DNA of 64,000 bases from Turritopsis dohrnii. Taxonomy: Eukaryota > Cnidaria > Hydrozoa > Anthoathecata > Oceaniidae. The notes beneath the pieces were generated by a model. That model did no database searches. It was given only the letters and a program-made list of their open reading frames with translations, and was not told the DNA's origin. Both the position numbers and the translations under genes were made by a program. The stretch lies in assembly GCA_027922465.2 (NCBI GenBank), contig BQMF02000300.1, forward strand, positions 310,001-374,000, given 5' to 3'. Shown here piece by piece: positions 12,202 to 60,889 of the stretch. Positions within the stretch are counted from its first letter, which is position 1, and each line of letters opens with the position of its first letter.

Positions 12202-12216
12202 CAGCGCTTAAAATAA
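12202..12216 (+). repeat. hAT terminal inverted repeat, transposase 3' side
   Basis: CAGCGCTTAAAATAA is identical to the inverse complement at 16000-16014. It begins with the CAG common in hAT elements and is directly preceded by TAGTAT. Confidence 0.9.
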
Positions 12217-12755
12217 GAATTTTACTTCTGCCGGTCTTATGACCGTCGGATGTCCTAATTAGCCGGCCACAACCTCAAGTTCAGCGGTCAAATAGTAAAT
12301 TGTATATTTACATTTTTTAAGTGGACAAATCAATGAAAAAACCTATGCTTTTGTCAGTTTTTGTTCTAACACAAATTATTATATAACAGAAAAAGAAAAT
12401 ACAATTATAAGAAACGCATTGCGTAACGATATAAATAGATCAAAACGTTACAAACTTTCTGCATTTTTCTTTTACCTAAATGTTTTGAAGCAGGTTTTTA
12501 CTTTCGTTAAATAAGATGAATTAATAGAACATGTATAAACAAGTTTCAGACGAGACATTCGTTTACTTATTAATCATTCATGAATTGATCATAGTGTCTA
12601 GACACGACAGCACAACGCTATGATTCACCTGTTGAATATTATTTTTCCAACGATGCTTCCTTCGTATTTGATAATGATAAGTGTGACTTATTGTGTCCAA
12701 AAAGATAAAACCAAATATAAACGAAACACAAATTATTTAGTCCCGTTCATTCGAT

Positions 12756-15304: not shown

Positions 15305-15999
15305 TTTCTCTTATGCAATGAATTATAACAACTTTATACTGTTGTTCTCTGGCTCGTTCGTTCTATTTTGTTCTCACACCTGTGCGTGCGCGTAAATTTT
15401 ACTTCGAAACAAATGCAAACAAAAGTGAAAGAAAAAAAAGTTGTATTTTAAATTTTGAGCTATTATGTTCATTCAAACGAATATGATTAGGAGACTGGAA
15501 ATTAAATTGCAGCGTTCGAATTAGCATATCGCGATGGAATAGTAGCGATGTAATTTTATCAAAATATGCTTACAATCACGATGGTTGCTTGCTTTCCTTG
15601 AAATGAGTAAGTAATATTATTGTATTAACAAAAATCTTTCTTACGATTAATAATAACAACAATATTTTTATTGATTTAAAAGGAAGAAACATATGTGCAT
15701 ATCCGTTGTTTACATTCTATGCATTGCTTCGAACACTTTATTCTCAAGCGATTTCTAAAAATACTCTTTTGAAAATAGAATCATTTGCTACGTGCAAAAT
15801 TAATTTTGGAAACAGTTATGTTTTATCGAAGATGAAGTGTCTTGATAAAGTATTAAAACAAAAATAAACATGAATATAGAATCACACTGTTGTCGAAAAA
15901 ACGATCACCTACATATACCGCCGGACATATGGTCACTAGGAACGGACTTCTGGCCGACCAAGCATCCATATTCGCCGGACATTGTCCGGTGACCGGCCG

Positions 16000-16014
16000 T
16001 TATTTTAAGCGCTG
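16000..16014 (-). repeat. hAT terminal inverted repeat, transposase 5' side
   Basis: This is the inverse complement of 12202-12216 and is directly followed by TAGTAT. Inside it lie inverted CCGG motifs at about 15920-15998 (for example GGCCGGTCACCGG on the minus strand) that may be subterminal transposase-binding repeats; that role is inference. Confidence 0.9.
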
Positions 16015-18446
16015 TAGTATTTATTTGAAATACTTGTATGTTTTTGGTAATCTTGACAAATATATGTCATACTGATTGATTGATTGATTGATTGATTGGT
16101 TAATCGTAATTTAAAGCGGGAGAAATTTTTAGCAGATATAATTCAAGATGGCGTTTTCACAACGATTGTTAGAAAAGGTAAATAAAAGTATACAGGTTTG
16201 ATGTAGTGTAAATAGTGCCCTTGTTGCTCTGGAACCTAAAAAGTCTTTTTTTCGTCCAGTTGAGCTAATATAAATGTCATTTATTTTGTTTATTACATTA
16301 CTAGATCTTAAACAAATCAACATAAACACCCTTCACACCACACTTCCCCTCTCTCCCAGCAGCTGTATATATATGTTTTAATTTCCCTTGTACGTTATTA
16401 TATATTTTGTGCTAAGGGGCACATAATAACAGTTACAATATGTTTCATTTCATGCTAAAACAGAAAATGTATGACCATATATAATGTCTTGGAACATGCG
16501 AAAGGTCAATTTTTATGTGTTGTGTGCAATTTTTCTTTATATAATAATGTATGATGGCTTGTGCACTGCACATTTGTGCAGTCTGTTCCTGGCTACAACT
16601 ACCGTAGATTTGCCTGGAGTTGAAACTGTACCTTGAGTTAAAACGAAAGTAAACAAACGAAATTCCAGAGTATTCCGCAGCTGAACTGAAAAAACTTCAT
16701 CCAGTTGATGGAATCTCTGACGAATGTGACTCATCCGAAATTTTCCACGGTGTGTTTGAACGAAACTGCACTGGAAACAGCTTTGGAACACGTATATACA
16801 TGTACTTTCAAAGGGTTTTTTACAATTTAAAGTATATGCAAAACTTTATTAATAAAGCTTTCATTCTGTTTCTCGTCTTCTTTAGAAATTTTTTGTATGT
16901 TTATTTTTTAAAAGATTCTATTTTATACATGACTAATTTTTTTTCAAGGCCATGTCCACATTGATTTGTGAGTGTGTAAGAATAGGACGGATTCAGAATG
17001 TGAGAACTTTAAATGGCATGTAGAAAGGCTTTTAAAGAAGCATACATCAAGCAACTTTAAATCAATTCAAGCACCTGTTCGTTGCTGTTGATAAACTTTT
17101 TTATAAACACGAAAGAAAACATTTATGATTTAGAAACATCTCAAAACAAGAACAAGGGCATTAGCAGCAGTCAAAAATTAAGACTTATTGAGGGCTTGAA
17201 AAATGGTGCTTGTGCGTTCGCCAGGAACGTTGACTGATAAAAAAATTTCTAGTTACGTACGAAGATTTTAATGAATTTGTTTGCACAAACGCCAATGTAA
17301 CCTTCCCATTTCATATTCGAAAAAGTAATATACAATTTTTACGTTATTGAAACCACAAGTAGTACAAATTTGAATTTATACACGTCATTAGAACTTCCTT
17401 TAAGAAGTCGTTAAGTATAAAGAAAAAGGCAATCAGTCTCCTGTGTCTAGGGTTCATCCCCCTTGCTTCACTATCCTCCATTACCTCTACGATCACATTA
17501 CGAAAAGTTGTTAGACATCTTGAATACCACGTACAGTCCAAGAAATAATTGTGTACATTGACATACTGTCTAGTTAGATCTACTTGTCAAGCTCAATTAT
17601 TGAAGTATTTAAATAAAAACATTTCAGAATGACTCCACCTTCAGACATAACAGTTGATGGCGTTAATCCTGGCTAACCCCTTGAGAAGTCAATTTAAGAA
17701 TTAAGAATTGCCTGTTTCTTCGTATACTATACTGCACAACATCTTAGTTTTACAGCATTATAATATTAAACATGGACACGGATGTAGTAACGGACAGGAT
17801 TACTCACAAAAATAATGTCTCACAAAAACCCTCTTTTGCTTATATCTCCCAAAATAACCATTTTTAAGACGAAAAGCTTTGCAGGAATGTATTTGTAATG
17901 AGTGCAATAAACAATTTGAGATCAAGTTCATAGGTGGTCGTTAGTTCTCCTTTAAATAAAATAGTTTTTTTATGAAAAAAAGTCATTATGGTAAAGGAGG
18001 CTTTAAGATTCTAAAAAATTAAAATATTGGTTGGTAAAAAGAAAAATACATTTTTATGGAATTAAGTAATATTAGTACTAGTTTTTATTTGTGTAAAAAA
18101 CAAGGCAGGATGTTCATGAAAATAATTGCTAATGTTATTATTTCTAAATTTCAATTTTCAACTTTAAGGCCCTAAATAAGATAAGTTATAGTAAACATTC
18201 AGCATAAAACAAGGCTGGTATGTAGAAAATACTTCTGTATTAGATTTCAACCCTTTGTACAATTTTTCATGATTTCATTTCAAATTGATACATTACAGTT
18301 ACTGTTCATTATGATTAATGTGGAATGTTCACAAACTCACCTCCTTAGAAAATTTAAGATACTATATAATGGACAACACATTAAGTCCAGTCATGCTAAA
18401 TTGGGTTTTAGAAAATTCCAATCAACCTGTAATATTTTTTTAGAGA
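16015..18446. other. Upstream region of the SET-recombinase gene
   Basis: This stretch separates the hAT from the first certain exon of the large gene. It holds a (GATT)n microsatellite at about 16075-16098 and the possible first coding exon at 16148-16177. Nothing else was recognised. A CpG-rich promoter or TATA box could not be identified with confidence. Confidence 0.45.
16148..16177 (+). CDS. Possible first coding exon of the large gene
   Basis: AAGATGGCG gives an ATG in a good eukaryotic context. Ten codons (MAFSQRLLEK) run to a GTAAAT donor in phase 0. The exon containing 18447 has an acceptor AG at 18442-18443 and its sequence AGA-ATG is in the matching phase, so splicing would extend the protein by 11 residues. 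This is inference from splice logic only; the alternative is translation from the ATG at 18447 or 18462 after a non-coding leader. Confidence 0.4.
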
Positions 18447-21400
18447 ATGTCTCCTATTGCCATGGCGGAAATGTATGTAAAACTTGGAAAGGATCCTGAA
18501 CATATTCAAAAAAAGTTTATTAATGCTGCAAAAGGTATATATATTATGTATAAGATATAGTTAATTATTTTTCCTTTCTTATTTGGCAGAAAAGATGACA
18601 GCATAAACTTTTTGTCGTTTGATTTCATGATGGCACTTTTTATCAAATGGAATTCTTTGCGATCACACTAAAAATGACTTCTCATGCAGGACATTTTTAA
18701 AATTAACGGATTTGCACCTCTGTATGTTCTTTTTATGGCTTTCTTTTTAAAACACAGAAAAAAAAATTGTTCTTTACAAAAATTGTCATACCAAAAAATA
18801 CTATACCTGAAAATTGATTTATTTATTTAATTATTATTCATGATAACACTGTTTTTTAAAAGCACTGAGACTGAGCAATGACTACCTTTTCAATGTAGGT
18901 TGGGGAGTATTTGCCACCTGTAAAATACCAAAAGGAAGCTTTTTGGTTGAATATCGTGGTGAGATTATTTCAAAACATGAGTCCACAGTGAGAGAAACAA
19001 GATACAAGAAGTTGGGAAAAGGAAATTACATGTATACTTTCTGTCATAATGGTGAAAAAGTGTAAGTTTGTCAATGTAAACTTTATGTATTGCATAGGAG
19101 ACATTGACTATTAATGTGAAAGTATACTATGCACATGAACAAGAGTATTGAGGAAACGCAAAAAAAAAAACAGTAGTTAGTGGTATGAGTGATAAGGATG
19201 AGGATAATGTCATGCTTGATTCTAGCAGAGTGGAAAATCTGGAATAATATCACTATAAAACATTTGATTATTTCAACTCTTTACAAATGTACACAAAGTA
19301 AGATTGAGTTACATATATTAAATGTAATTAAAACATTTAAAACATTATGTATCAATAAGGTCAATCTGGAGACATGAGTTTCAAGTTTAAATAAATGAAT
19401 TCTGCATTTATTTTGTTCTTTCCATTCAGTTAGGTAAGCATTAATGCTATAACATCATCATTCATTATTTCTCCTTTAGACATGCCTTATGTCTTGATAT
19501 TGTTCACTTTTGATACTTTGTACTGTAAGGCCCATAATTCATTTGTCAACATTTAGGTGTGATAATATTTGCAAGTTTTATTATTTAGGTTGGATGCCAC
19601 AAAGGATGATGGTTCCTTAGGCCGTTTGGTGAATGATTCACTTTATTATGCTAATGCAAGAATGAAAAAGATTGTTTGCTTTAAAGAACCAAAATTATGT
19701 TTATTTGCCATCAAAGACATAGATAGTGGTGAAGAGATCTCTTATGATTATGGTGTTCCTGATCTGAAATGGCGTGAAAAGGTACACTTATGTTATGTTT
19801 CATTCTGAGCATTCTTTTAAAAGCTATTTTCTTGGCTTTGAAGCCCTAAATCCCAAGCATAAGCAGTATAATCTACAAGGGGTGGGACCACAAAATGCTA
19901 GTATCTTTTTCAGTACATATAACTTTATAATGAAGTGACATTAAATCATAACTGTAAAGTCTTGTAGCAAGTTCATAGTTAGGTTAACCTCCCCCAAGAA
20001 AGATTTGGATGATTTGTTGATGTTGAGTACATTTTCTTTTTCATGCATAGTGGATGTGTTTAGTGTAGGGTACTACAGAATGCCAGTTGACATTTTTGTC
20101 GATTTCTTCGGAAATGTATGTAGACTCTTAAAACTTTGCATTATATTTCTCAAGTTAGTTTGCATGTTTATTCTACTTTTCCAGTTTTTGGCATTACTTG
20201 CCAGACTTTTGATTACAAAATGTTAGTCAAAAGGACTACAAAATGCTAATATAATATGAGAAAAAAAATGGAAAATTGAAAAAGTTTTAAGTTATTAGTT
20301 TTGTGTCATTGCAAACAAGGTATAATGGGGGTACGTTTAGGTGAAGTTATTGCATTGTATCTCTTACAGTGAAATTACAATAAAGTGGCTTCATTTCAAG
20401 ATGAAAGTCTTCATGACACAATGGTTAGAAATTGTTATTATTGAATAGAAGAGAGAAATAGAATAGAAATAGAGAAAAAAGTTAAGTTAGAAAATAATAA
20501 TTCAAAAATTATGGGAAAGTATGAAGTAAACTCAAATTGAAGCCAGCATCAATTTCAAAGTTAAAAATTTTGAAAGATCAGCAGAAAGCCAGGGAAGAAC
20601 AACCAGCAAATGCAGTCTTATTTTGTCAACAAAACAACTGTAGAGGTTATACAGCAGTTAAAAGTGGACTCTTCCCTTTAATCAAAGACTGTAGGACTAT
20701 AAATAAAAGATTGGATGGTGGTTCTATTGAAGACGAGAAAGAATACTACAGGTAATGTTATATACCTTTTAATGCTTCATTTGTTGTGATTGTTCACTTT
20801 ATACTGTACTGGATTTTTGTACTGAACTATATTTTGAAAACTATCACAGATCATTCTTTGATTCTAAAGTAAGATTTCCATTTCCTTCTAAGCATCCTGA
20901 CTAAAAGTGAAAAAGAACAATTGGTGCGCCATATCAAAAATAAAAATAGATGTTTGCAAAGCATTGACAGGAAAGAGGTTACAAGATTAATAATCAACAC
21001 TCTTGCATTGAGACAGCATTTACGGAGAAAGACCCATGGAAGAGTTGATAAAAAACTTTCAAAACATGCTGAGGATGCCTTAAAGCGGAAGTGGTTAGTA
21101 ATCTTTACCTATAAGTTAAGTGAGCCTGAAAAGTATGACGAAAAACAGAGGGACCAACTGAAACCAATCGAAATCAGTGAATGTAAAATTGGTATGTGGG
21201 TAAAGGTTGTATACGAAGGAGAAATATTTCTTGGAAAGGTGCAGGGAAAACAAAACATTGATGTTGAGGTCCAATGTTTGGAGCATCCTTTTGGTATCAA
21301 TCACCACCAAGACATGGAAAAAGAGCCAGTTTACTACAACAAAGTGTTTTCATGTGATGGCTGTAAACCCAGACTTGAAAAAGTTGGACGGACATGGAAA

Positions 21401-24400
21401 TAGACTTACTGATTTAATTATTATGGATCATTAATAGACTTCCAATTTCCTTCAAATTAGGGTTTTATTGTCACCAGGTTACATATTTCTACATTTATTA
21501 AAAAAAATTATTCTCTTGATAATTATACTAATTATAGTAATACGAAATTTTCAATACAAAGCCTCTTGAGGACATGATAGGCACGCGTTTAAAGAGGACT
21601 GAGCTTTATTTAGAGGGGTGAACTGTCATAATTCATAATGGCAGTACTCCAGCTCGGATAGGTGGGCTTTTTTCAAGATTTTATTGAATTAAGTCATTGT
21701 CATAAGATAAAGGTCTATTTTTCACTCAATTTTAAAGTTCTCATATACAGTTTTCAAATGAATAAGAAAAATGTTTCATTACATCAATGGATTCTATTTT
21801 ATTAACCACATAGTAAGCACTAGCATTTTGTAGTCTTGCTCCCTGTAGATGTTTTTTTTTTAATGTTTGATCTTAATAGTTATTAAGACCTACTTTACAC
21901 TATTTACTTTCAAATCAGGAGAAGCAGGAATATGAAAAATATCAAAACATGGTAAATAAAAAAAAGAGTGGTAGAAAAAAAAAGAAAGAAGACACTTTTG
22001 CTGAGGTATTTACTATGTTATTGCTGTTGTTGCTAATAATATGGAATGTGTGACAAACAACTAGAATATAATGGTACATAGTGCTGTATTTCAAAACTGA
22101 CTTTCAACAACAATTAAAGAGGTAGAAACAAGTATTTGCTTCATGGCTTCTGTAATTGTTTCATTCCACATTCTATTGCATTGATGTATTTCAGGGGTTT
22201 TTTTTAAACAAATTTTTTATTCCTTGATTGGACGAATGAAATTGATTTGAACGGTAAATGGTACATGTACGTCTATTCTGTCGAAAAATAAAATTTGTCA
22301 GATGTTCTGTAAGATTTTACATAAATTTTATATGTATTTCTTATCATTCTTCTTGATTGTTAGGGTATCTACTTTAATACTGACTAGTGTTAACAAAATT
22401 TCTTGTTTTAAGGGTCATTTGGTATTTAAAATTTCCCTCTTAACATCATCTAATTATGTTTTCTTTTAGCTCAATACTGATGTGCAGGAAAGTACGACTA
22501 GTGTAATAGTGGTACATGAAGAACTGCCCCAATCTACTCTTCCACACACCCCTGCTGTGCGTAAAGTATAATATTAGTCATCTGCAATTTTGCACATAAA
22601 GCATAATTTCATAAGCTCTTTTTATTGTAAAAAACAAGCTTTAAAAACTGTTTATTATCTAATATGTTTTCTTTTAGCTCAATACTGATGTGCAGGAAAG
22701 TACTACTAGTGTAATAGTGGTACATGAAGAACTGCCCCAATCTACTCTTCCACACACCCCTGCTGTGCGTAAAGTATAATATTAGTCATCTGCAATTTTG
22801 CACATAAAGCATAATTTCATAAGCTCTTTTTATTGTAAAAAACAAGCTTTAAAAACTGTTTATTATCTAATTATGTTTTCTTTTAGCTCAATACTGATGT
22901 GCAGGAAAGTACTACTAGTGTAATAGTGGTACATGAAGAACTGCCCCAATCTACTCTTCCACACACCCCTGCTGTGCGTAAAGTATAATATTAGTCATCT
23001 GCAATTTTGCACATAAAGCATAATTTCATAAGCTCTTTTTATTGTAAAAAACAAGCTTTAAAAACAGAATCCTCTGGCCATGGGAGGAAACATTATATGG
23101 AATTGTTAAAGCAACATCAGTTGAGCCACCACCCCTCTCCCAATTAAGCAACATCCTCGAGGGTTCCAGTTTATTTTCTTTACTTCTCTTGAAACATGGT
23201 CATACAGAATTGCACCAGTCTACATCATGAGTTTATTATCTTTGTTACAACTGGAGGTCTAATTTTTTTGTAGAAAGGTATTAAAATACAAACATCAGTA
23301 AATAAATTTAGTAGCAAAAATAGATTCATAACTTGCTTTGACTATTATTTCATAATGATGTATTGAATACTATATTATTATTGTACAAAATTGAGTATGA
23401 TTGAGCAAAATGTAAATTGTGTTTTTTATGTTTATTTATTTATTTCAAGATGGCTATTTTTCATGTCTACAGGGACATGCTGGTGTTATTGTGATTTGTT
23501 TTCTCCCAAGGCCAGTAAAAAATGGAATTTATTTTCCCCTACTGAAATGACTGTGTATTACAGTTTATTGAACCTATTTTTCATTTAAGGCTGCACTGAT
23601 GCATGTAGATTTTGATGATGTCAATGTCCATCCTGCAGAAAATGTAAGTAAAATTTTTCAACAAACAAGGAACTTCAAAATATGTTTGAGTGGAATTACC
23701 TGAATATTATGATGAATGATGAAAAAACTGTAGTGAAATAAGAATTCATCTAAGTCAGCTGCAACTGCTTTCTCTCACACTATGACCTTGAAAATTTGAT
23801 GACATAAAATGTTAATGTTAAAACAGTGGGTCAGTGGTTGGAGATTTATAAGTTCAATTACAACAAAATTGTAAAATCTGTAATTGATTTTTAAAAGTAA
23901 GTTTGTTAACCTTTGCTTAGTCTTGGAATGGCCTTTTAGAAAGTTGTAACAAATTAGAGTATTTAGTTATTCAAGAAAAGGGTCAACTATTCAAATGTTG
24001 AGGTAAAGTACTCAAAAAGTAAATAGGATAGGATTTAATATTGAATCACCAAAACAATATAAAAATAACTTGTGTGCAATTGGTAGGTATTAAAGTAATA
24101 AAATCTAGTTGCCAAACCAACAAATACCATTGTGAAAACTTGATTTATCATCAATCACTACACCTTCATATTAATGATAGCCAACAAGTAAAATTTTTAT
24201 TGTTTCCTTGTATCATTGGTATGTTGATGCAATTTATTTATACCTGCAAGGAGGGGTGTACCATGGAATCTTAATTATTTGACAATACTTAGTCTTAGTT
24301 TGCAATTTAAACATTTTGTTTCTATTTAGGATGAGTTAAAAGATTTAGTGCACAAGATAACTAGTAAGTGATTCATATTGCAGTTTTTATTTTGGGGGGT

Positions 24401-27400
24401 ATTTTTACCACTACTTTCAATTATAACATAAAAAGCATAGATCTCATGAGAACACTAACTAATTATACTGTAATTATCCGAATAAGGGCTGATTAAGGGC
24501 CCAGCCTAAGGAGGGTGGCCAGCACTCCTAAGAACTCCTAAATATCTGAAAAACGAAATATCCTCCTAAATTCTCATAAATAACAAGATTAATATTCAAG
24601 AAAGACTTCTTAAAATCTCCTTACAAATGTGTGCAGTAGGTTACTAGATTTTTTTCTGGTCCTTAGTTGTTCTTTAGAAGTAATCTGTGTCAATTATTAA
24701 TGTTTTTGTTATTGAAGTGAAAGGAGTAATAATTTATCTAAAAGTGTTGAAAAATTAATATTGATAGGACCTTTAGTTTTGTTCGTACTTAAAGACATAC
24801 CTGCTAGTTTCACTGATGCTTGTTTGTTTTCATTAAGCTTTGTATTAAAAATGAAATATTAGCTTGAAATCATTTTAATCATGTCTGTATAGTATATGTC
24901 TAACTTTCAAGATATCTGGTTTGCAGAGGAAAAATTTATGCCTGGCTTAATTGATACTTGTTTTGAGTTGTCAGAGCAGATTTTCAGTTGCTGGCCGAGG
25001 TCTGAATCAAGTTGAATCCTATATGAGAGGTGAGAAGCATATGCAGAGCCTTACAATAATCCAGCTAGTACAAACAGAGCCTTCTGAGTTCTAAATCTAG
25101 TAGTGCAATAGAAGAACCATCTGTTGTAAAAGAGAAAGAGAAGAAAAGTCCATTGAAGAAAGATACAGTTAAAGCAGAAATAATGTGGACGTTTTGTCCA
25201 ACAGATATTCATATTAGAAAGTCAGATTTATCTTATCAACTTTCAATGTAAGAAAAACTAGCAATGATTGATTGTTTGCCTCTTTCTTTATTTAACAGGC
25301 ATTTCTCCTAAAATCTACTAAGTTTTCCATGCTTTTTTAATGCATTTATGTTGGTTTCTCCTAAAATATTAAAAAATCTCATAAAAACCACTAAATTCTC
25401 TGAAATTTTACAATTTCAAATTGGCCACCCTCTCTAATACGTGCCCTGGTAATTTCCATAAAGTTCAATAACCACCTAGCACTTATTAAGCGCCCTCCTC
25501 AAAAAACTCCACATGCTGTGAAAAACTGGACTCTTACTTTTTACTTACTTATATCGAGAATACAAAAATATGTAGTTTATGTTTTTAACATTTTTTCTTT
25601 TAAACATGTATTATATTGTTTAAACTAAAAACTAAAGAACCTAATAAGACCCTAATAAAACTAAAAAACACTAGTAAGACGAAACCTCAGTTTTTGTTAA
25701 ATGTTTTTTTCAGTTTTTAAACCAAAGTTTACTGAACCCAATAATTTATGACAGCTACTTAAGCTTGATTTTATTGTCTACCAATTGATGCTTTAATAAG
25801 CCCATAACAAAACGGAATTAGTAAACGTTAGCAAAACACATAAATGCCTACTAAGTCTTAATTTGAAAACCAAGGTAAGTATTGACAAACTACTATGTTT
25901 TCAGGTGTAGATTTCATGATTGATGCAGTAACTATGGAAAAGCAATCAAAAACTGTGATAACATTAGAGCCTGAGATGTGTATGGCTCCATCTGAGAAAG
26001 AATTATTTCGTAACACAGACTCCTCACCAGTGAAGGTAGAACTTTTTTAATAATCTTCAACTTGGTCAGTTAACACCAATTCAGGTTTTCTTATATACCT
26101 GTTGTTCAGTTTTTATTCATTAAACTTGTGTTTCATTTCTTGTCTTAGGTTGTGACAATTCCAACATGTAAGAAAAAAATTCTTGATGACAAGTTTGTTT
26201 TTGATTTCAAGGATTTTAATATCTCATCTGTAGTTGGAGAAGGTAGATTTGCTAAAGTAGTCAAAGCTACATGTCCACATATTTCTTCAAAATTGGCACT
26301 GCGCAGTTTAAAGTTGTCAGAAGCTGCTGCAGTTAACAAAAGAAAGCTGCAGAAAGAAGTAAAACAACTAGTCAGTATGGACCATAAAAACATTGTGAAG
26401 TGTTTTGGTGTTGTTTTGGCCAAGAGTATGTTTGTTCTTGAGTACTGTGGCATTGAATTTGATGTTGATGGTGAACAATGCACAATCCATTCTCTGCTTG
26501 GACTATTGCGTACTTTTGGAGATGACCTCCTCATTAACCTCCGTTTATCTGCTATCTCTGATGTAGCAGCTGGCTTAGCTTATCTCCATAGCCGTTCTTT
26601 GGTTGCTGGTGATTTGAAGCCAGCAAATGTTTTGATCAATGGTAGAGATGTTGAAAATGTGACATTCAAGTTATCAGATCTTAATTTTGATAGATCATCC
26701 TTAACAAGCACTTTGAAATCATCTTTTGCTGAAACATCTCAAAAAGAAATTGTTTACACAATGTTGTACTTAGCTCCAGAACTTATTTCGTCCGAGTTGG
26801 GCTTTTATGGCAATCAAAACTCTAAAACTGATATTTTTGCATTTGCAATACTGATGTTTGAGGTCATGTTTCCAGAGGAAGATATCAATATCTTTTGCAG
26901 CCCAATTAAATATATGGAAGCCTTGAGAAATGGCTGGAGGCCAGAAGTTCCAATTTTGGGTGATGAATATTTAACTCCAGTCATTGATATCATGAGAAAA
27001 AGTTGGAATCAAGATTCCAGGGAAAGACCTTCTTCTCAAATTATTCAAGAAGTGGTGCTGAAGGCTACTGAAAATTATTTTCCGAAAAAAACAGTGCATG
27101 TAGGTATTTAATATTAGTGCCATGTAACTACAATGCAACATCTGCAGTTCACTAAATCAATTACAATATCATAGGAAACATTCTTAACACCTACTGGTCA
27201 TGAATCTGCTGTTGTAGAGATTGTAAAAACAATGGTAGATAAGATAGTTTCTGCAGAAAAAATAGAAGTGAGTGTTTCAGAATTTTGTGACAAGTAAAAG
27301 TAAAACTTTTTGATATTTGCTCCAGTTCTAAAGCTCTAAATCTTATTATATTTTTTGAAAGTCATAGTTGCAACATTTCTAAATGGTTAATAATTTTTAA

Positions 27401-30400
27401 CACTATAGGTTGCAAGTTTGGCACCCATACTTTCTGAAAATATCTGTTCCAAAGTTGTTTCTGAGACAATGCAAGGATTGTTAGGAAATGTTGAAGAGCA
27501 GGTATCCATTATTGTGTCTGTTGCATGATTTCTAAACATTCGTTATAAATTATTCAATATAGAGGATAGCTAAATGTTGTTTATCCTCTTAGTCTATTCT
27601 CTTAGATTGAAGAAGGTTTAAATGATGATATAGACAATCAGGTATTCTTTCAATTTCCTTTTGCCATGATATTTCTCCATTTTCCTTTTCTGATAACTCC
27701 AAAGTGCTAATGTAATATGTTCTATGTTTGTGATTTGGTTTTCTGTTTCCTGTAATATTCAAGATCATAAACATGTCTAACTTTCATAGTCCTTAGACAA
27801 TGATTCTGGTCTTCATGGTGATTTTCCAGATATTGATAACACAGATTTAGTAAGTATTAATTACTTTTTGATAGTGATAGATCTTTTAGGTTTTTTAATA
27901 ATCAATATTAGGGTGTGAATGTCATTGAATAAGATTAAGGATTTTTTTAGGAAGACAATGAAAACCATTCAGTGTCAGATTTAGTAAGTATTAATTACTT
28001 TTTGATAGTGATAGATCTTTTAGGTTTCTTAATAATCAATATTAGAGTGTGAATGTCATTGAGTAAGATAAAGGATTTTTTTAGGAAGACAATGAAAACC
28101 ATTCAGTGCCAAATCATCTAGAATCAACTCCGGTAAGTTTTTATTACGCTTTTCACCAACCATTGCCATTATATTTTAACTGTAAAATGTACGTTTTTAA
28201 AGAATTTCACTTTCCATAATTATCTGAAATAGCCCCTCCCAACCTAAACAAGTGCCGTTTCCAATGTGAAAAGGTTCCTTTAAAATATTGTGATCTCTGT
28301 TGGATAGTAAGTAAGAATAAGAATGAATAAGTTGTCTTTAAAATAAGAAAATCTTGATACCCTAAGCCCTGTTGGTTTGAGAGGATTGAATGTAATAACA
28401 AAGGGTCTGTTAGCAAAAGCATGAAGCTAAAGCAAACCCTTTATATCAGGAAACTGTACGAAATATGCCCAAGTAATGTGGTGTAAACCCTGTCAGGTTA
28501 ATTTAACAGAGGAAAATGATGAATGGCTTCTCATGTTAGATGTATTAACCTTTGTTGCAAGTCTTGTTCTTGTTGTCAATTCGAATTTATCACTATCAAA
28601 AATCTGCATTTGCATTCAGGTTTTGAAGCAACAATTGACTTCAATTTAGCTTGATGGGGTATTGCAAGAGAATTCACTCACTGAATTGTTCTTATCTTAC
28701 TAAAAAATCCCAGCGAAGTGTCCACTGGCCTGTTCTTGCTTTCTTCTTCCTCTGACGGTTGTGTTCCGATGAAATTGTTCCTATAAATAATATTTGTAAC
28801 ACCAGCTTGAGATATAGAGAGAAGGGTATATCCCAATTTGGTTGTGAACAAAAACAAAGACCTAAAACAAATAAAGTTTTGCATTTTTATTTTGAAAAAC
28901 GATGCAATTTCTGGCATTTGCTTGGCAAATGAGCTCCCTGCCTCAAGTGTACCCCATCAAATAAATTGTTGATAATCATTAATGCTTATTCACATAATTA
29001 CAGTTAACTACAGTTTCTTTCACTGCGCAAACCTCCATTATCTAGACAAAAGCATAACAGTGAACTTGTTTCTTTTTTAAGGTCAAAATTAAAGGAAAGA
29101 AAAAGCCGTATAGATTTTGTATATTTTGCAAATGTTGGACTTCGTATTTGCGACGTCACATTGTTTTAAGACACAAGGCAGACCCAGAGGTGAAGGCTGT
29201 TCTTGGTTTATCTAAACCAAAACAACTAAAAGCCTTTCAAGTTTTTCGCAGGAAAGGGATATTTGAAGTTAATGTTGCTGAGGCAAAGAAAGCTAAACCA
29301 TGTTATGAACGTGAAAGGAAAGGAAGAAGACATGCAGATACTGTTTACTGTAGTCACTGTTTAATGTTCTGTTCGAAACGATTTTGGGCAAATCATCAGA
29401 AAAATTGCCAGAAAAACTCATGTAAAAAGGTTTTGCCAATACAAGCTGATCTCCTCAATTTGCCTGAAAAAGTTAAAGTTAGTGAAGATTTTCGCAACCA
29501 CATCTTGTCAAAGTTTCGTTCGGATGAAGTTGGAAAGATTTGTTACCAAGACAACGCTATTATTAAGATTGGATCAGTTTTTTATAATAAGGAAAAGAGA
29601 AAAGTCAGTAAAGCAATTCAAGTTCGTAAGTCTGTTCGAAATGACATGAGGCGTCTGGCAAATATTTATTTGATCTTTATAACTCATGAAGACATCCAAA
29701 GAATAAATGGAGATGCAAGTGATTTGTTTAATAGACAGAATTTTGAGAGCCTAAGAGAGTCAATTGAAACCTACACATCAGTTGGAGATAGAACTATCAA
29801 AGCTGGATTAAAGCAAAATTTATTTTATTTGCTAAAAAAAGCTGCAAAAGTTTTCAAAGGTATTATGAAATTGCTATCTCAACATAAATGTTATCATTAC
29901 TTAAACAAATGAATATTTCCCTTAAAATCTTAGGAATTTATTTGACCGAAAAAAAAGATAATGAAGCAGATGAAATTGACAAATTTATAAGTATACTGGA
30001 AATGTGGGAAGATTATATTTTCGGTGATGCCACTTATGAACTGAACAAGAACAAAAATGTGAAATTGAGAAAGCCATCAGCTTTGCCACATGAGGACGAT
30101 GTAGAGAAATTCAAGAACCATGTTATTAATCGAATGCAAGAAATTACCAAATCCTATGAATGGCTTGATTCACAGAAATTTACTGAGCTAAGAGATATAG
30201 CATGTTCTCGCTTAACATTACTTAATGCGAGGAGAGGTAACATTATTAATAGTTGCAATCACTGAAAGTGATAAACCTATTCTTAACACAAAATATGTTG
30301 CAAAATAAGGTAGTTGTGAAAATTAATTCAAACTTTACATTTAAGGCGGAGAGCCAGCACGCATGCTACTTGAAGAATATAAAGAGGCAGTTAATAATGC

Positions 30401-33400
30401 ATGGATAGATAAACAGAGATTAGGAGACTTAGATGAAATTGACCAAAAGTTGGTAGAAACCTTCAAAATCAGCTATATGACTGGTAAAGGAGCTAACCAT
30501 CTGGTCCCAGTATTAATCCCTCCAGATACCATTAAAGCTTTAGAGATTTTGGCTGATCCAAAGATTCGGAATGATGTAAATGTTGCTGCTGATAACCCAT
30601 TTCTCTTTGCTGGTACAAGGTCTTCGGAAGGTCACACATCAGGTTGGCATGCTGTTCATAGCGTGGTTGATAAGCTGACGTTGAAACATCCTGAAAATTT
30701 CAAGGCTACATCCAATCGTCACCGTATAAGTACATTGTTTTCTGCACTTGATCTGTCTAGCAATGACAAAGAAATCTTTTTTAAGCATATGGGGCATTCT
30801 GGGAAAATTAATGAAAATACTTATCAGGCACCACCAGCAGTACTGGAGATCACAAAAGTTGGAAAGCATCTTCTAAGAATGGATGGAGGTCAGTTTTTCA
30901 TTTAAGTTTGTTTTTAATAACTTTCCTTTTTAAGGAGATACATTATTTGACAATTATATGCATTAGAAAATTTCGTCATTTTGATTTCCAGGATAGTTAT
31001 TGATATACTTACATACTTGGCAAATGGATAAATACAATGCACTTGAGAGAATTCTTCTGCATGTATAGAAAAAGTGCACAATTTTCGAATATTACTATTG
31101 TCATTGTTTTCATGAGACTAATTTGTGACCTGTGAAACTAAATACTGAATGGCATGCAAAATCTCTGTATTTGAAATGTTATCAAAGAGAATACTTTTAC
31201 TTTCTTATGGCCTATATTAGAACCAAGTAAATTAAGCAGATTGAATGGAACGTAAATTCAATTAAAGATCACAACGTGATTTATGAACATTTTTGGTTTA
31301 CATCAATACACATTGTTCAATTTTAGTATTCTAGCCTACATCTGGATGTACTTGACATTTATCTTTACTTCAGCACACAATGTGTTTGACATAAACTCTG
31401 AGGAAAAGAAACAAACCGCTGCAACTGCATTTGTGGAAGAACTCGCTCCACCAGCTGGTAATAAGTAGTTTCTTGTCATGTACACTTTATTTATTTTATT
31501 TATAATAATATTTATACAGGATAACCACAAGTTATGCTTTTATGGAAGTAACAGGACAGTAATAAATATTTGTAAATTTTATTTGGTATGTTCATATAAT
31601 CTATTTCAGAACACAATGTGATAAGACAAAAACATGCAGGCAACAAGAAACAGACCGCTGCAACTGCATCTGTGGAAGCACTCGCTCCACCGGCTGGTAG
31701 TAAGTAGTTTCTTGCCATACGTACACAAATTTTGCTCTTGTCGAGGTAACGGCAAAAAAGTAAATATTCTTGTATTTTATTTGACATGTTTATATATATC
31801 CATCTCAGAACGCAATATAATAGGACAAAAACGTGCAGGAGACAAGAAACAAACCGCTGCGACTGCATCTGTGGAAGCACTCGCTCCACCGGCTGGCAGT
31901 AAGTAGTTTCTTGCCATACGTACACAAATTTTGCTTTTGTCGATGTAACGGCAATAAAGTAAATATTCTTATATTTTATTTGATATGTTCATATACATCT
32001 ATTTTAGAACGCAATGTAATAGGAAAAAAACGTGCAGGAGACAAGAAACAGACCTCTGCAACTGCATCTGTGGAAGCACTCGCTCCACCGGCTGATAGTA
32101 AGTATTACACAAGTTCTGCTTCGTTGAAAAGTTTCCGCTTTTAGACTGTGTTTTTTTTCATCAACAATTTAGCATGTCTAATTGAAGGCTTCATAAAATT
32201 TAGAGAAAAAGTATAAACTAAGGGTCCGTTCAAATATGTTTGATCGGGCCAAGGGCGAAAATTGTGACGGTGATTGCGATAACGATGAGGAAGATGACTG
32301 TGACGATGATTGCGATGAGGACTACGATAATGAGAAGGACTACGATGATGAAGATGATATGGATGAGTATTCTGAGGATGAGATAGACAACGCAAAACCT
32401 GCATTTAAAAGTCGTAAGTCCATAAAATGTTTATCTTTAATTCATTCTCCTTAAAAGATATCCTTTTTTCTTAAGAAATTTGTGTAATGAGTTTAACCTA
32501 ATGTTGCATATTTTCTTTTCATTTAGAAGGAAAATTGGTTCCTAAAGTACCTCTTAATGAAGACAAGATTCCAAGTATTATTATACTTTTTATTTTTGTT
32601 CCATAACTTCTATCTTAATTGATATATGATTAAAATATCAGAAATTGGTCACACCGTAAGTAATAGATGGCGCCCTGTTAAAGAGGAGACTCATAATGAT
32701 TCCGTGGAATTTCATCGAATAACCTTTTCCCCTCTTAAGGCGGGTTTTCAGTTGTGCGCTGTAGTCGCGCGAATGAGCGAAGAGCTTTTTGATTCGATCA
32801 GTAGTTCAAATAATTTGAACTACCAGACGAATGAGTTAGCGTCAGCCAAAATTCGTTCATTCGCGTAACAGCGAATCAATAAGAGACCATTTAAAACACA
32901 TTGTCTAAACAGACAGACGGTTTTTGACAGACTTCGTTGGCGACAGAATTATTTTGCAAACAATGCAGTGTGTGGAATCAAGTCTTTCGCCATGATATGT
33001 TTAATGATGTTGTTTTAGGGAATGAGTGTTGTGTCATGTTGCAGTTGGCACTACATGAACTAGTACATAAAAGATTCCTATACATGCCATTGTAAGATTA
33101 TGACATGTAAAGGGATTTAAATCAGAAAGCAACTATCGACTTGACCGACTGACCGACTGTACTAATTTATTTCACCGCGACCAGATGGATCGGCAGACGT
33201 TCGAATAGGAATGTATACTCCATGTTTTAAGACGGAGACGTTGCACATACAAGACCCGTAGGTGATTGTGGTCTTATTCATTATTCTTACCAAATGAGGT
33301 CTTTGTCGGTTACTACCTGTTACAATTTGAGAGAAAGACAGATCTAGGTTCAATTTACAGAGATTCTAGAGAGATAATACGTTTTGAATTCAAAGTTAAA

Positions 33401-34446
33401 AAAAAAAACAATGATGTTATCAAGAGAAAAAAAACATGCCTGTGCATAATCAAGTGAATGATGATGATACATCATACATCATCGAGTGGAAGAGCATATA
33501 TAATTTTTATATGTTACACTGATCAGATTAAAGTTCAAGTTTGCATTTTATTGTTTTTAACTTTTTCCCATGTTCATCAGGCCTAACACATTGACAGTTA
33601 TATCCTTTATCACATGACTTGTTTCATCCCATCAAAGTTACTCTGAACCAGGCTAATTTTCTTCATGAAATAGATTTAGGCGTTAGTGCCATTCTTATCC
33701 AGAACTCCTTGATTCTTCGATATGCGGGTATGAGACTTTAGCGAAGGCCAGTAAAAATTGCTCCATGTTACGACGGCCATTTGATAACATGTTGGAAAAG
33801 ACTCTTCAAACAGAAAATGAAACTGGTTTTCCAAGTCTTTGAGAACGTAGACAAAACATAGCGTTTCAAGAGACCTGCATATTGTGAAAATTATCAATTG
33901 TTTATTTTCAGATCAAAGAACCTATCACGCATGGTCGAAAAGGGAAGAGGAAATGTTGCTTGTTCGATTTGCGAAATATATTTCCAGTAATACTATGCCA
34001 GGTATGTATTGGATAACGAAGTTAAATGTAGATAGCCAATTTGTTTCTTTACGTATGTTGACTAAACAAGGATTTGGCCTTGGTTTTTTGTGGAACTCGA
34101 TCGGCAAGATTAAGTTTCATGAAAAAGGAAAGGACAAGATCCATGTATTTTCCCTATGATTCGAACACAATAATTCAATGGGCAACTCTTTCCCCTCGAA
34201 TAAGCACCCGATTAATGAAAAAAGTTTGTAAACGTTTAGCAAGCTGCATTCTATTAAGTAGGCAATTGAATTGCAACAAACTTCTAACGTGTGTGCTTAA
34301 TTATAGGGAAAAATGAAATCTTAAAGTATATGAAGGCGGAGAAGATCACTACTCCATACACAATCGTCCGAACTAAATTGACGAATGAACGGGTTAAAAC
34401 TGAACGTTTAAGAGTGAAGAATTTAAAAGAGCTCAATATCCATTAA
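18447..34446 (+). CDS. SET / pseudokinase / tyrosine recombinase fusion gene
   Basis: Predicted exons: 18447-18534, 18899-19061, 19589-19781, 21919-22005, 22470-22556, 22678-22764, 22887-22973, 23590-23643, 24330-24363, 25905-26035, 26149-27099, 27175-27267, 27409-27501, 27606-27641, 27790-27849, 27951-27983, 28085-28132, 29082-29859, 29934-30236, 30346-30888, 31374-31457, 31610-31699, 31809-31898, 32008-32097, 32204-32413, 32527-32574, 33912-34001, 34307-34446. All have GT/AG borders and compatible phases, giving 4791 nt and 1596 residues without an internal stop. Domains in order: KMT5-like SET (about 30-147), kinase fold with altered motifs (about 354-645), C2H2 and CCHC fingers (788-806, 865-884), Crypton-type tyrosine recombinase (about 1040-1316), repeat exons (1317-1434), acidic stretch (1435-1504), SANT-like tail (about 1520-1596). 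Probably nuclear. Either a domesticated Crypton-derived gene or a mobile gene with captured domains. Exon skipping or a split into two genes cannot be excluded without RNA data. Confidence 0.75.
18899..19781 (+). other. KMT5-like SET domain (exons 2-3)
   Basis: Exons 18899-19061 and 19589-19781 encode KGWGVFA, VEYRGEII, LDATKDDGSLGRLVNDS, ELYDYG-like EISYDYG and a Trp-rich end. Order and spacing match the SET fold of KMT5A/SET8 (KGRGV, VEYxGxxI, DAT, RLINHS, YDYG). Members of that family transfer methyl groups from S-adenosylmethionine to lysine, classically histone H4 K20. Here the NHS cofactor-binding motif reads NDS, and no pre-SET or post-SET Cys cluster is visible, so activity is uncertain. 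The domain is only about 118 residues long, close to the minimal SET core. Confidence 0.8.
19873..21848 (+). mobile_element. Pogo-like DNA element inside intron 3
   Basis: Imperfect 33-bp terminal inverted repeats bound this segment: both begin CTACA and share ACAAAATGCTAGT (left 19873-19905, right inverse of about 21816-21848; roughly seven mismatches). AT flanks both ends. The inner motif ACTACAAAATGCTAAT at about 20234-20249 is a subterminal repeat. The element carries a degenerate two-exon ORF (20537-21403) and lies wholly in the intron between the SET exon 19589-19781 and exon 21919-22005, in the same orientation as the gene. Confidence 0.7.
20537..21403 (+). pseudogene. Internally deleted transposase, two exons
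   Basis: Fragments 20537-20751 and 20893-21403 join through a GTAATG…AG intron to read EYYSILTKSEKEQLV, then IKNKNR and LSKHAEDALKRKW, typical of the N-terminal DNA-binding region of DDE transposases in fish and cnidarian genomes. The sequence then jumps to a C-terminal module (GMWVKVVYEGEIFLGKV, FGINHHQDMEKE, KPRLEKVGRTWK). The central catalytic DDE core is absent, so this is an internal-deletion derivative. No ATG precedes the first block; the frame simply opens at 20537. A small domesticated protein is possible but less likely. Confidence 0.6.
22449..23065 (+). repeat. Tandem triplication of an 87-nt exon
   Basis: Three near-identical units of 208-209 bp each contain acceptor TTCTTTTAG, an 87-nt exon (starts 22470, 22678, 22887) and downstream intron. 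The exons differ at one base (ACG/ACT). Each encodes LNTDVQESTTSVIVVHEELP followed by nine residues. Using donor GTGCGT (for example 22557-22562) each exon is 29 codons and phase 0 on both sides, so any copy number keeps the frame. The stronger-looking donor GTAAAG four bases downstream would give 91 nt and a stop at the start of the next copy, so it is disfavoured. Confidence 0.85.
23644..24329 (+). other. Intron, nothing further recognised
   Basis: AT-rich intron between exons ending 23643 and beginning 24330. No repeat or ORF with recognisable motifs was found. Confidence 0.5.
24511..25432. mobile_element. TIR element in intron, 922 bp
   Basis: GAGGGTGGCCA at 24511-24521 and its inverse complement at 25422-25432 bound the segment. 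CTAA occurs just outside both ends. Near 25060-25255 a plus-strand stretch reads SSAIEEPSVVKEKEKK and then VKAEIMWTF, similar to the N-terminal region of transposases I recognise from cnidarian and fish elements, so it may be a decayed autonomous copy. It lies in the intron between exons 24330-24363 and 25905-26035. Confidence 0.5.
26149..27099 (+). other. Pseudokinase-like domain, single 951-nt exon
   Basis: The exon adds 317 residues carrying a protein-kinase fold: glycine loop VVGEGRFAKVV (366-376), alpha-C KLQKEVKQLV, catalytic loop AGDLKPANVLI (490-500), then DLN (514-516), YLAPELI (544-550), DIFAFAILMFEV and a C-lobe Arg (RERPSS). Three canonical positions are changed: the VAIK Lys is Arg389 (LALR), HRD is AGD, and DFG is DLN. 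The catalytic Asp492 and metal-binding Asn497 and Asp514 remain. By family knowledge these changes usually abolish or weaken phosphotransfer, so a scaffold or regulatory role is more likely. Encoding a whole kinase in one exon, among much smaller ones, suggests insertion of an intronless copy. Confidence 0.78.
27850..28117 (+). repeat. Tandem duplication of a small exon, 134-bp unit
   Basis: Units 27850-27983 and 27984-28117 are nearly identical, including intron sequence GTAAGTATTAATTACT and the start of the exon (EDNENHSV). The first exon is 33 nt (27951-27983); the second is longer (28085-28132, 48 nt). Both are phase 0 on each side, so the duplication preserves the frame. Confidence 0.85.
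28133..29081 (+). other. Intron before the recombinase exons
   Basis: A 949-bp intron separates the kinase/linker half from the zinc-finger and recombinase half. Nothing was recognised in it. In particular no stop codon, polyadenylation context or new start supporting two separate genes was evident, although this cannot be excluded by eye. Confidence 0.5.
29082..30888 (+). other. Zinc fingers and Crypton-type tyrosine recombinase
   Basis: Exons 29082-29859, 29934-30236 and 30346-30888 encode a C2H2 finger (Cys788, Cys791, His801, His806), a CCHC-type finger (Cys865, Cys868, His880, Cys884) and a tyrosine-recombinase fold. Recombinase motifs are LNARRGGEPARM with the box I Arg created across the 30236/30346 splice, a following beta-strand region, SNRHRIST with Arg1260/His1261/Arg1262, and HMGHS…NENTY with His1286 and nucleophile candidate Tyr1295. 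The order R-H/R-H-Y is that of tyrosine recombinases. The finger-plus-recombinase architecture matches Crypton-like families seen in fish and cnidarians. Catalytic residues appear retained. Confidence 0.8.
31374..32097 (+). repeat. Four tandem copies of a phase-1 repeat exon
   Basis: Exons 31374-31457, 31610-31699, 31809-31898 and 32008-32097 are spaced 236, 199 and 199 bp and share KKQT(A/S)ATA(S/F)VE and LAPPA. Copies two to four begin with HNVI or RN(V/I)IG and use donor GTAAGT. The first copy has ATAAGT at that position and is assigned the GTAATA donor six bases upstream. All are symmetric phase-1 exons of 84 or 90 nt, so copy-number change leaves the frame intact. The repeats extend a Thr/Ala/Pro-rich linker after the recombinase domain. 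Confidence 0.82.
32204..32413 (+). other. Acidic Asp/Glu-rich exon
   Basis: The 210-nt exon is chosen with acceptor TTTAG at 32199-32203 because it alone gives the phase needed from the preceding exon and keeps the acidic frame. It encodes a run dominated by Asp and Glu with regularly spaced Cys (for example ENCDGDCDNDEEDDCDDD). Such stretches are typical of nuclear proteins that contact histones or basic partners; that role is inference. Confidence 0.6.
32575..33911 (+). other. Intron with a MITE
   Basis: A 1337-bp intron. Apart from the inverted-repeat element at 32756-32876 and a short GATGATGAT/ATCATC palindromic patch near 33460-33485, nothing was recognised. Confidence 0.5.
32756..32876. 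repeat. Short palindromic MITE-like element
   Basis: Two imperfect arms of about 58 bp face each other. GCTGTAGTCGCGCGAATGA at the left corresponds to the inverse of TCATTCGCGTAACAGC at the right, and the centre is AGTTCAAATAATTTGAACT. Foldback structure and size resemble a MITE, but no clear target duplication was seen. Confidence 0.5.
33912..34446 (+). other. SANT/Myb-like C-terminal segment and stop
   Basis: Exons 33912-34001 and 34307-34446 encode HAWSKREEEMLLVRFAKYI, TMPGKNEILKYMK and a basic tail ending at TAA 34444-34446. The W…E…L…F…I pattern followed by PGK is like the SANT-like tail that follows the recombinase domain in related mobile-element proteins, which supports assigning these exons to the same gene. 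Confidence 0.65.
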
Positions 34447-34665: not shown

Positions 34666-35685
34666 GATTGTCTTTCATGTGTCGAATTAAGTACATGGCG
34701 CACCTTAAAATGTGCAAAAGCTACATTTACAATGAGCACAGATGGCAGTGTAGTGCATAATAGGGAGTTTAAGAAACTACGAAGACGTGAGGAAAGAAAA
34801 CAAAATAAGTAGACTATTATCAAATGAATGTTTGAAGAATTGACTTTTGTTAGAGAAACTATTCGACAGATAAATTCATAATGACTGGAAAGTTATCAAG
34901 TTGAGAAAAAATCTGCATGAGAAAAAAAATATTTCACCCTAAAATCACGTCCCCGTTGTCAGCACGACTTCAAAACATGACTTTTCACGTTGTGTATGAA
35001 ACGTGCGAATTTGCTAATGATCTAATTATCTCACAAAATTTTCTCAGTAGTGCCGTTGTAAAAAGTAAATGAATTCCGCAAAGAAACAAAGCTTTTGTTT
35101 CGAGTCACGTCGCCGTCTTCGTTACCGTTGCAACTTCTTAAACTCCTAAATTTTGGTGCTAGGAATGCGTGTAGAATGGATTTTAGTCCGAACTTCACTC
35201 CAAGAATTCACTATCTCATTTATATTAACCAATAGTTAATCTAAGTTTTGATAATTCGCGACTTGTTAGTCGAAAACTACAAATGGGAATAATTTCTTCT
35301 AGCCATTTTCAGTAAATTTTTCCCCCTATTTCCCCCTTTATTTTGATCATACCTTTTATTAGGTCCATCAGAGCATCCTGTTTACTAATCGATAGTATCC
35401 CGCAATAAAATTTGACATTTCTTATATGTCACCAATTATGGCTAAATAGTGTTAAAAAATTTAAGGCGACATTGAAATCCGACTTAAAAATTTGTGGCGA
35501 CACGCTTTGAACCAACTTGCAACTATCAGACATTAAAGATCATAGATGGCCTCTGCATAATGCAAAGACCCTTGTAAAAGAAAAAGTTGGCGACAAAAAT
35601 GTCGTTATGAGTTTTTTTTATTAGAATAATGTTGTCAACCTTAATTTACATTTTCAGTAATGTCGACTAAATGTGTAAATTAGTA
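34666..35685. other. Intergenic, nothing recognised
   Basis: No ORF with recognisable motifs or repeat family seen. A (TA)n microsatellite starts at about 35686. Confidence 0.5.
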
Positions 35686-35719
<34 letters not shown>

Positions 35720-35753
35720 AAATGTCCAGTGTGTGTGTTGTGTTTGAATTATT

Positions 35754-35823
35754 AATTTTCGATATCTTACATATCTTTATCAAGTTTTTGAACTTGATAA
35801 AGATATGTAAGATATCGAAAATT
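35754..35823. repeat. Perfect 33-bp inverted repeat, 4-nt loop
   Basis: Arms 35754-35786 and 35791-35823 are exact inverse complements (CGATATCTTACATATC / GATATGTAAGATATCG within them) around a TTTG loop. The structure sits between (TA)n tracts 43 bp before the Helitron start at 35866. It could be a small foldback element, a cruciform-prone palindrome or a pre-miRNA-like hairpin; nothing in the sequence discriminates these. Confidence 0.85.
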
Positions 35824-35865
35824 CGTGAAGACATGTGTTTTTAACTGTTCATATATATATATATA

Positions 35866-38502: not shown

Positions 38503-38503
<1 letters not shown>
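35866..38503 (+). mobile_element. Non-autonomous Helitron, 2638 bp
   Basis: Begins TCTTATTATAATAATCCGCG and ends with hairpin GGTAAAAAGTTTTTACC, an 11-nt spacer and CTAG (38500-38503). The left flank is A, the right flank T, within a (TA)n tract. No Rep/helicase ORF. About 130 bp before the end it retains a GC-rich terminator of the other class (ACATGGGTGGCGAGCGACGC, near 38355) that lacks its CTAG, so it carries two terminators in series. Its first 400 bp and last 250 bp closely match the minus-strand Helitron at 54233-57067. Short ORFs near 35889-36284 are shared with that copy but have no recognisable domain. Confidence 0.85.

Positions 38504-38542
<39 letters not shown>
38504..38542. repeat. 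(TA)n microsatellite
   Basis: Continuous TA dinucleotides immediately after the Helitron end; together with the TA tract before 35866 it was probably one tract split by the insertion. Confidence 0.8.
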
Positions 38543-38547
<5 letters not shown>

Positions 38548-58139: not shown

Positions 58140-58413
58140 GGTAAAGCAGAAACATGCGGATATCAAACCGTTTGTCGATGTGGTGATAATGTTGATTTTA
58201 CTGACTGTATCATATGAGATGTTCTAATCGCTGGCATTGAGGATTCAGATATACGCCGGGAAGTTCTCGGTATGGCAGGGATAACCGATAAACCCATCAA
58301 CTTCATTATTACGCTGATAGAGAGCAAGGAGATGGCAAGGAACGCTCTCCCAATGCCAACCGTGCTTCATCGTATCCTCGACATAAGACCGGATTTCTGG
58401 CAAATCCAGCCCC

Positions 58414-60847: not shown

Positions 60848-60889
60848 CACATACTCTATGGTGTTGTTCTCTACCATGACCTGGTTGTC

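Follow-up and report, generated by a model that had tools for sequence, protein, structure and literature searches.

Starships of fungi are giant DNA elements that use a tyrosine recombinase (YR), the captain, which belongs to family DUF3435 and is the first gene at the 5' end. Among animals, CryptonA and CryptonI are DNA transposons with a YR; in the parts of their description drawn upon here, terminal repeats are not reported for them and animal Cryptons are presented as being without a C-terminal domain (PMC3212892). Endogenous nimaviruses of crustaceans are large, encode YR integrases with zinc fingers and are inserted in microsatellites; their YR groups target 28S rDNA or telomere repeats, and the group that inserts in AT/TA repeats uses a DDE transposase (PMC10871703). 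This article describes a locus of the hydrozoan Turritopsis dohrnii that shares features with each of these systems. The window, a stretch of 64,000 nucleotides (assembly GCA_027922465.2, contig BQMF02000300.1, positions 310001-374000, forward strand), contains most of a repeated unit and a long gene that encodes, in order, a SET domain, a kinase-like domain and a YR. As judged by comparison of sequences, this is very probably the gene for the recombinase of a giant cnidarian (probably hydrozoan) DNA transposon that was active recently and encodes a SET-(pseudo)kinase-recombinase fusion.

The SET domain links the locus to a second group of described genes. KMT5A-like genes number up to 65 in Hydractinia, 24 in Hydra and 61 in sea urchin, with a single gene in Nematostella; most have an N-terminal SET domain plus other domains, those of Hydractinia and sea urchin have C-terminal ends in common, and those of Hydractinia are activated in the early embryo alongside retrovirus-like transcripts (PMC10368294). 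They are treated as predicted H4K20 methyltransferases, and neither a recombinase nor a mobile unit is mentioned in the portions of that paper drawn upon here (PMC10368294). The gene in the window resembles them in having its SET domain near the N terminus of a long protein. Among the open-licence papers covered, and in the portions of them drawn upon (preprints excluded), no report was found of SET-YR elements or of a transposon link of KMT5A-like genes.

The gene and its recombinase

The gene model was rebuilt from sequence alone, with exons picked by open frame, GT-AG borders and phase, and comprises 30 exons and 1743 codons between 18447 and 34446 (+ strand), phase-consistent throughout and with its sole stop at the end. 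A preliminary description of this DNA had proposed a SET domain, a kinase, two zinc fingers, a recombinase and a SANT-like tail in one continuous frame of 28 exons and 1596 codons. All of these lie where it placed them, in one phase-consistent GT-AG chain, and the frame is indeed continuous; the exon and codon counts are superseded, a gap that tandem-duplicated exons may explain. The predicted parts are as follows (window coordinates; the sister loci are related loci of the same genome, and P numbers denote compared proteins, both described below).

18447-18534, + strand: exon 1, predicted start
18899-19061, + strand: exon 2, N-terminal half of the SET domain (Pfam SET 3.3e-7)
19589-19781, + strand: exon 3, C-terminal half of the SET domain, with GRLVNDS and ISYDYG (Pfam SET 3.4e-7)
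20543-20751, 20893-21097 and 21919-22005, + strand: exons 4-6, charged linker
22470-22982, + strand: exons 7-9, a 32-aa exon present three times in frame (208 bp tandem array)
23590-23643, 24330-24363 and 25905-26035, + strand: exons 10-12, linker
26149-27099, + strand: exon 13, kinase domain with altered motifs (Pfam 7.3e-30)
27175-28132, + strand: exons 14-19, linker between kinase and YR
27790-27849, + strand: exon 17, NDSG.HGDFPDIDNT motif, matched in the sister loci and P0009
29082-29859, + strand: exon 20, pair of zinc fingers and beginning of the YR core-binding domain (YR comparison)
29934-30236, + strand: exon 21, YR up to the NARRG arginine motif (YR comparison)
30346-30888, + strand: exon 22, catalytic part of the YR, with TGKG, NRHRIST, HMGHS and NENTYQ (YR comparison and fold of a relative)
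31374-32097, + strand: exons 23-26, tandem-duplicated linker exons
32204-32574, + strand: exons 27-28, acidic stretch
33912-34001 and 34307-34446, + strand: exons 29-30, SANT-like tail and stop (tail match)

Tandem exon duplications thus form three groups, at 22470-22982 (three copies), 27951-28132 (two) and 31374-32097 (about four), and the number of duplicated exons seems to differ from one genomic copy to the next. The exon-17 motif recurs between kinase and YR in all three sister loci (72.7% of 22 aa in each) and ahead of the zinc fingers of P0009, and the SANT-like tail matches the C termini of P0012, P0010, P0009, P0050, P0121 and P0020. Searches for tRNAs and Rfam families found nothing.

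Exons 20-22 encode a tyrosine recombinase, as judged by fold comparison, using the predicted fold of a relative, and by invariant residues. The predicted fold contains both the core-binding and the catalytic fold of the YR superfamily. In alignments of 16 and 42 proteins, an Arg, a second Arg, a His and the Tyr are invariant and a Lys nearly so, the catalytic residues and the position of the HxxR His being those that we take from XerD; the retention of Arg, His and Tyr noted earlier is borne out. It was the fold comparison that settled the matter; a profile search of PDB sequences with the YR returned just two weak, unrelated rows, and Foldseek taken alone gave XerA at E 0.037 and nothing below 0.001. 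Pfam detects the SET and kinase domains, as the preliminary description anticipated; the integrase/recombinase family that it also expected is absent among the 25 (of 26) Pfam families listed for 42 YR relatives. Its label of a Crypton-type enzyme is correct as regards a tyrosine recombinase but does not fit the SANT-like tail found in the window protein, P0009, P0012 and P0121, which animal Cryptons, as far as described in the source cited, do not have (PMC3212892). The SET and kinase domains and a unit of 32-37 kb are further differences from CryptonA and CryptonI (PMC3212892).

The SET domain may be classed as KMT5A-like by way of P0121, a Hydractinia protein whose SET domain has KMT5A as its top match (E 1e-20) and is 41% identical to that of the window over 140 aa. 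The NHS motif of KMT5A reads NDS in the window, in P0121 and in the sister family.

A repeated unit with fixed ends

Contigs are abbreviated by number below, C300 being BQMF02000300.1, which holds the window, and C65, C83, C262 and so on other contigs of the same assembly, which was searched as 436 Mb in 891 contigs. Similarity between copies extends far beyond the gene, mostly at 97-99.6% identity with some pieces at 95.7-96.7%, and delimits a unit present in four full copies (C300, 37.3 kb; C83, 34.3 kb; C422, 32.2 kb; C660, 34.3 kb) and in a fifth, on C262. The left end, which in C300 lies at about contig position 308,351, some 1.65 kb left of the window, is shared by the four full copies and consists of a TA tract followed by TATAGTAGATTAAGGCGACAG. 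The right end, AAATTAGTAG, is common to all five; in four of them (TA)n follows, after which the flanks diverge. TA tracts flank both ends in C300, C422 and C660. A sixth copy of the window family, located on C274 by protein search alone (C274:454746; YR exon 97%, kinase 100%), gave no right end within the 6 kb examined. Features of the unit and its surroundings in the window are listed below.

1-35716, + strand: part of the giant unit inside the window, with copies on C83, C422 and C660 (full) and C262 (from 17373)
2157-5246, + strand: LINE with endonuclease and reverse transcriptase (Pfam RVT_1 2.8e-33), nested within the unit's left half
12202-16014, - strand: hAT element of 3.8 kb (Dimer_Tnp_hAT 8.8e-6); C83, C422 and C660 join 12201 to 16015
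35670-35716, no strand: right end of the unit, AATGTGTAAATTAGTAG then (TA)15 at 35687-35716, the same end in five copies
38504-38543, no strand: second (TA)n tract, on the far side of the original target (C65/C382 junction)

Within the unit, the gene occupies part of the right half and is oriented toward the right end. Like a fungal Starship, the unit is a giant DNA element using a tyrosine recombinase; it differs in this placement of the gene, in the absence of DUF3435 among the listed Pfam families mentioned above, and in the fusion of the YR to SET and kinase domains. No cargo genes were recognised among the ORFs (open reading frames) of the unit that were scanned. The hAT insertion is unique to C300 among the four full copies, and the nested LINE is aligned in C422 and C660, with the part right of 3154 missing from C83. 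In DIRS and Ngaro elements a reverse transcriptase belongs to the YR element itself; a DIRS-like reading was rejected here, as the only reverse transcriptase in the unit (short ORFs unscanned) is that of the endonuclease-bearing LINE, nested and partly missing from C83. Outside the unit, the window holds remains of an LTR retrotransposon (RNase H, integrase) at 58387-61552.

Size, a zinc-finger YR, a multi-exon gene and insertion in microsatellites are together reminiscent of nimavirus elements (PMC10871703), and the unit might on these grounds be the remnant of an integrated large DNA virus with a microsatellite-resident YR. This is scarcely plausible: no viral family was found in the unit's four long ORFs beyond the gene, which gave LINE and hAT (shorter ORFs of the left half unscanned), nor in the ten pieces of the gene that were scanned, and relatives of the YR were not found in the viral contig collection.

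Target site and end motifs

Unoccupied targets were sought by joining the two flanks of a copy (in the case of C300, by TA) and using them as a genome query. With C300, left-flank matches of 98-99% were obtained at two paralogous loci, on C65 and C382, where the left flank leads into a short TA tract and then into the sequence that follows the 38504-38543 tract of the window, the structure of an empty site. Beside the unit, a separate insertion of 2.8 kb (35717-38503), which holds a 33-bp palindrome, lies between the two TA tracts.

Because dispersed copies share their ends, differ in their flanks and have an empty counterpart, the unit is regarded as mobile. The preliminary description had offered a choice between a domesticated recombinase and a mobile gene carrying its own chromatin and signalling modules; the several same-end copies in different flanks and the empty site favour the second, and the dispersal of the copies, some of them broken, speaks against the first. 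A related alternative would make this a host family of KMT5A-like methyltransferases with a domesticated recombinase, lying in segmental duplications. A multi-exon gene under long-term constraint would suit that explanation, as would the publication of the Hydractinia and sea urchin genes as methyltransferase genes of the early embryo (PMC10368294). It is nevertheless highly improbable, since the units have common boundaries within different flanks, mostly in (TA)n, since empty sites exist, and since some copies are broken (C262 in exon 5, C660 in exon 20); host-gene and segmental-duplication readings are thus set aside as largely refuted.

Short motifs recur near the ends of the unit. TTAAGGYGACA, chosen by eye from the unit ends and searched with one mismatch permitted, has four occurrences in the 300 bp next to the left end and a single one at 225 bp from the right end, as against 2 to 4 in the 29-34 kb of unit interiors; GTCGAC and GTCGCC words, also picked out by eye, lie near the ends too.

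Related loci and proteins

A sister family, again with the order SET-kinase-YR on one strand, is present on C119, C491 and C274 (SET to YR at 407-414 kb). Its members are mostly 96-99% identical to one another, with a drop to about 90% close to C491's right end, and its kinase and YR are 46% and 49% identical to those of the window. The right ends again meet a TA tract, with flanks that differ between loci. On C274, only two TA runs of at least 16 occur in the 32 kb examined, starting at 394,336 and 419,001; they bracket 24.7 kb with GTCGAC words at both its ends. The left end of the sister family is known from C274 only, similarity in C119 and C491 stopping short of it.

Across the genome, at least 136 SET matches fell in at least 121 clusters and at least 145 matches to YR exon 20 in at least 129 clusters. 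When clusters were paired within 25 kb, a YR lay downstream on the same strand for 46 of the 121 SET clusters, against 0.45 expected from uniform density; two other pairs were on the same strand in the wrong order and two on opposite strands, and 75 SET clusters had no such YR partner at the search depth used. The kinase matches, which include host kinases, formed 104 clusters, with SET upstream in 25, YR downstream in 31, SET downstream in 10 and YR upstream in 1. The complete series of SET, kinase and YR was found at 16 distinct loci (17 rows, C414 appearing twice). At C546, C651, C362 and C283 the kinase stands ahead of both SET and YR.

A protein search with the whole model passed 4 of 6446 candidates at E 1e-3 (P0121, P0122 and two kinase-domain proteins without SET), and a further search passed 51 of 5768; among these 51, SET is listed for P0121 and P0125 only. 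Both are proteins of Hydractinia symbiolongicarpus annotated as 'uncharacterized protein'. P0121 (LOC130629325, 1406 aa) has SET at 42-148 and kinase at 197-461, then YR and tail, and is identical to the window protein at 57% in the YR (599 aa), 29% in the kinase (283 aa) and 35% in the tail (75 aa); P0125 (LOC130645001) has SET and kinase, and its YR ends before the catalytic end. The two resemble the window protein in the order of SET, kinase, zinc fingers and YR, and P0121 also in its acidic stretch and SANT-like tail; unlike it, they are without the long linker between SET and kinase. The sea urchin protein P0122 has SET and YR with no kinase. The fused order is more than chance to judge from these sequences, since it recurs in Hydractinia, in the sister family and in the 46 SET-YR pairs; SET, kinase and YR would probably share a single transcript. 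The earlier statement that no described protein has this combination needs qualification: annotated, uncharacterised Hydractinia proteins have it, and KMT5A-like genes with N-terminal SET were published in 2023, in an account that, in the portions consulted, leaves the recombinase unmentioned (PMC10368294); the link to a transposon, as far as the literature covered goes, is unreported.

Constraint and the weight of the evidence

Between window and sister family, nonsynonymous (pN) and synonymous (pS) differences over 298 codons of the kinase are 0.37 and 0.74; for YR exon 20 (251 codons) they are 0.39 and 0.78, and for YR exon 22 (179 codons) 0.27 and 0.79. These values point to clear constraint on the kinase and YR exons; since pS is saturated, a ratio cannot be stated. 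The younger copies of the window family are unequally preserved: exon 5 of C262 has lost one base, exon 20 of C660 contains both an additional base and a stop, and C83 carries inserted DNA, a one-column gap in exon 19 and deletions in exons 6 and 20 that preserve the frame; C422 is free of indels and stops in the exons retained for the count given below.

Several observations weigh against the interpretation as an active element with a working fusion protein. In the recombinase, the His of the HxxR motif is replaced by Thr in nearly all members of both alignments. In the kinase, LALR, AGDLKPAN and DLN stand in place of VAIK, HRD and DFG, so that canonical catalytic residues are missing. Exons 4-12, between SET and kinase, are matched by none of the three sister loci or the compared proteins and are for that reason the weakest part of the model; exon 5, if read through (20873-21403), meets an in-frame stop at 21401, which makes a separate short SET-only product possible, and the stretch at 21109-21403, which resembles a chromo or tudor domain by eye, matches neither a Pfam family above cut-off nor anything in the sister loci or compared proteins. 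Among the units, C83 has no TA tract at its right end and abuts a short repeated element with at least 38 further genomic matches, everything left of window position 17373 is missing from C262, and just outside the left end of C422 lie four more TTAAGGTGACA-like motifs, apparently the end of another related element. At the target, the tract of C65 is read as (TA)7 and the C382 junction comes from alignment only, the halves of the empty site are parted in the window by the 2.8 kb insertion as well as by the unit, and the joined flanks of C83 and C274 matched only their own loci and one-sided repeats, yielding no empty site. Purifying selection, which the preliminary description had named as a check on the gene, is evident between the families and weakly tested among the young copies, where 25 nonsynonymous variants (one a stop) stand against 18 synonymous, with 20-26% synonymous under neutrality (exons 7-9, 18, 19 and 23-26 dropped; variants not independent), and where p lies between 0.005 and 0.06 when the neutral fraction is set at 0.22 to 0.28.

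Active protein kinases carry the VAIK lysine and the HRD and DFG motifs. The nearest solved relatives of the window kinase by sequence are TAK1 and RIPK1; the kinase of the sister family reads IAIR, AGD and DLN, the same departures kept at the identity of 46%, and that of P0121, unlike the window, is near-canonical with AVK, HRD and DFD. An altered yet conserved fold suggests a binding role in the window lineage, and binding or regulation is a likelier function of the domain than kinase activity.

These results bear on whether the YR gene alone might be the mobile core, with SET and kinase as passenger exons outside the working protein. The SET-kinase heads of P0125 and P0121 are 88% identical over 463 aa and their YRs just 38%, so that heads seem to move between recombinase lineages and can separate from the YR; and 83 of the 129 YR clusters, a further point against a fixed fusion, have no SET upstream at the search depth used. 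Such an arrangement is unlikely, given that SET precedes YR in the 46 pairs and in the sea urchin protein, that the odd kinase motifs persist in the sister family, and that pN/pS in the kinase is low. A fusion protein encoded by a giant transposon remains the preferred interpretation.

Proposed mechanism and implications

In the mechanism proposed for this transposon, the YR would bind short motifs of the GTCGAC or TTAAGGYGACA type near both ends and excise the unit, probably as a circle, which would then recombine into TA microsatellites by strand exchange inside the TA repeat. The zinc fingers and tail may help to locate DNA or nucleosomes, and the kinase-like domain would sooner serve in binding or regulation than in phosphorylation. 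The KMT5A-like SET domain would probably modify chromatin at the donor or target site, thereby keeping the element expressed or coupling its movement to the cell cycle.

It is likely, too, that animals own a class of giant YR transposons analogous to Starships, resident in TA microsatellites, in which the protein with the recombinase also contains a KMT5A-like histone methyltransferase, frequently along with a kinase, and heads are swapped between recombinase lineages, and that expression of such elements accounts for a large share of the KMT5A 'expansion' described in hydrozoans and echinoderms, its activation in the early embryo included. Taken together, P0121, P0122 and the unit in the window make it the simplest reading that many published KMT5A-like genes are of this class, and the expansions published for Hydractinia and sea urchin probably include element genes of this kind. 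Large tyrosine-recombinase elements would thereby be added to the animal mobilome, with a route for copying SET and kinase domains around genomes, and KMT5A-like gene families would be re-read as probable element genes rather than host regulators. A chromatin writer and a recombinase on one polypeptide would provide a direct test case of the ways in which mobile DNA moulds or exploits the chromatin of its host, and the question can be tested in Hydractinia, a laboratory animal in which this protein architecture also occurs.
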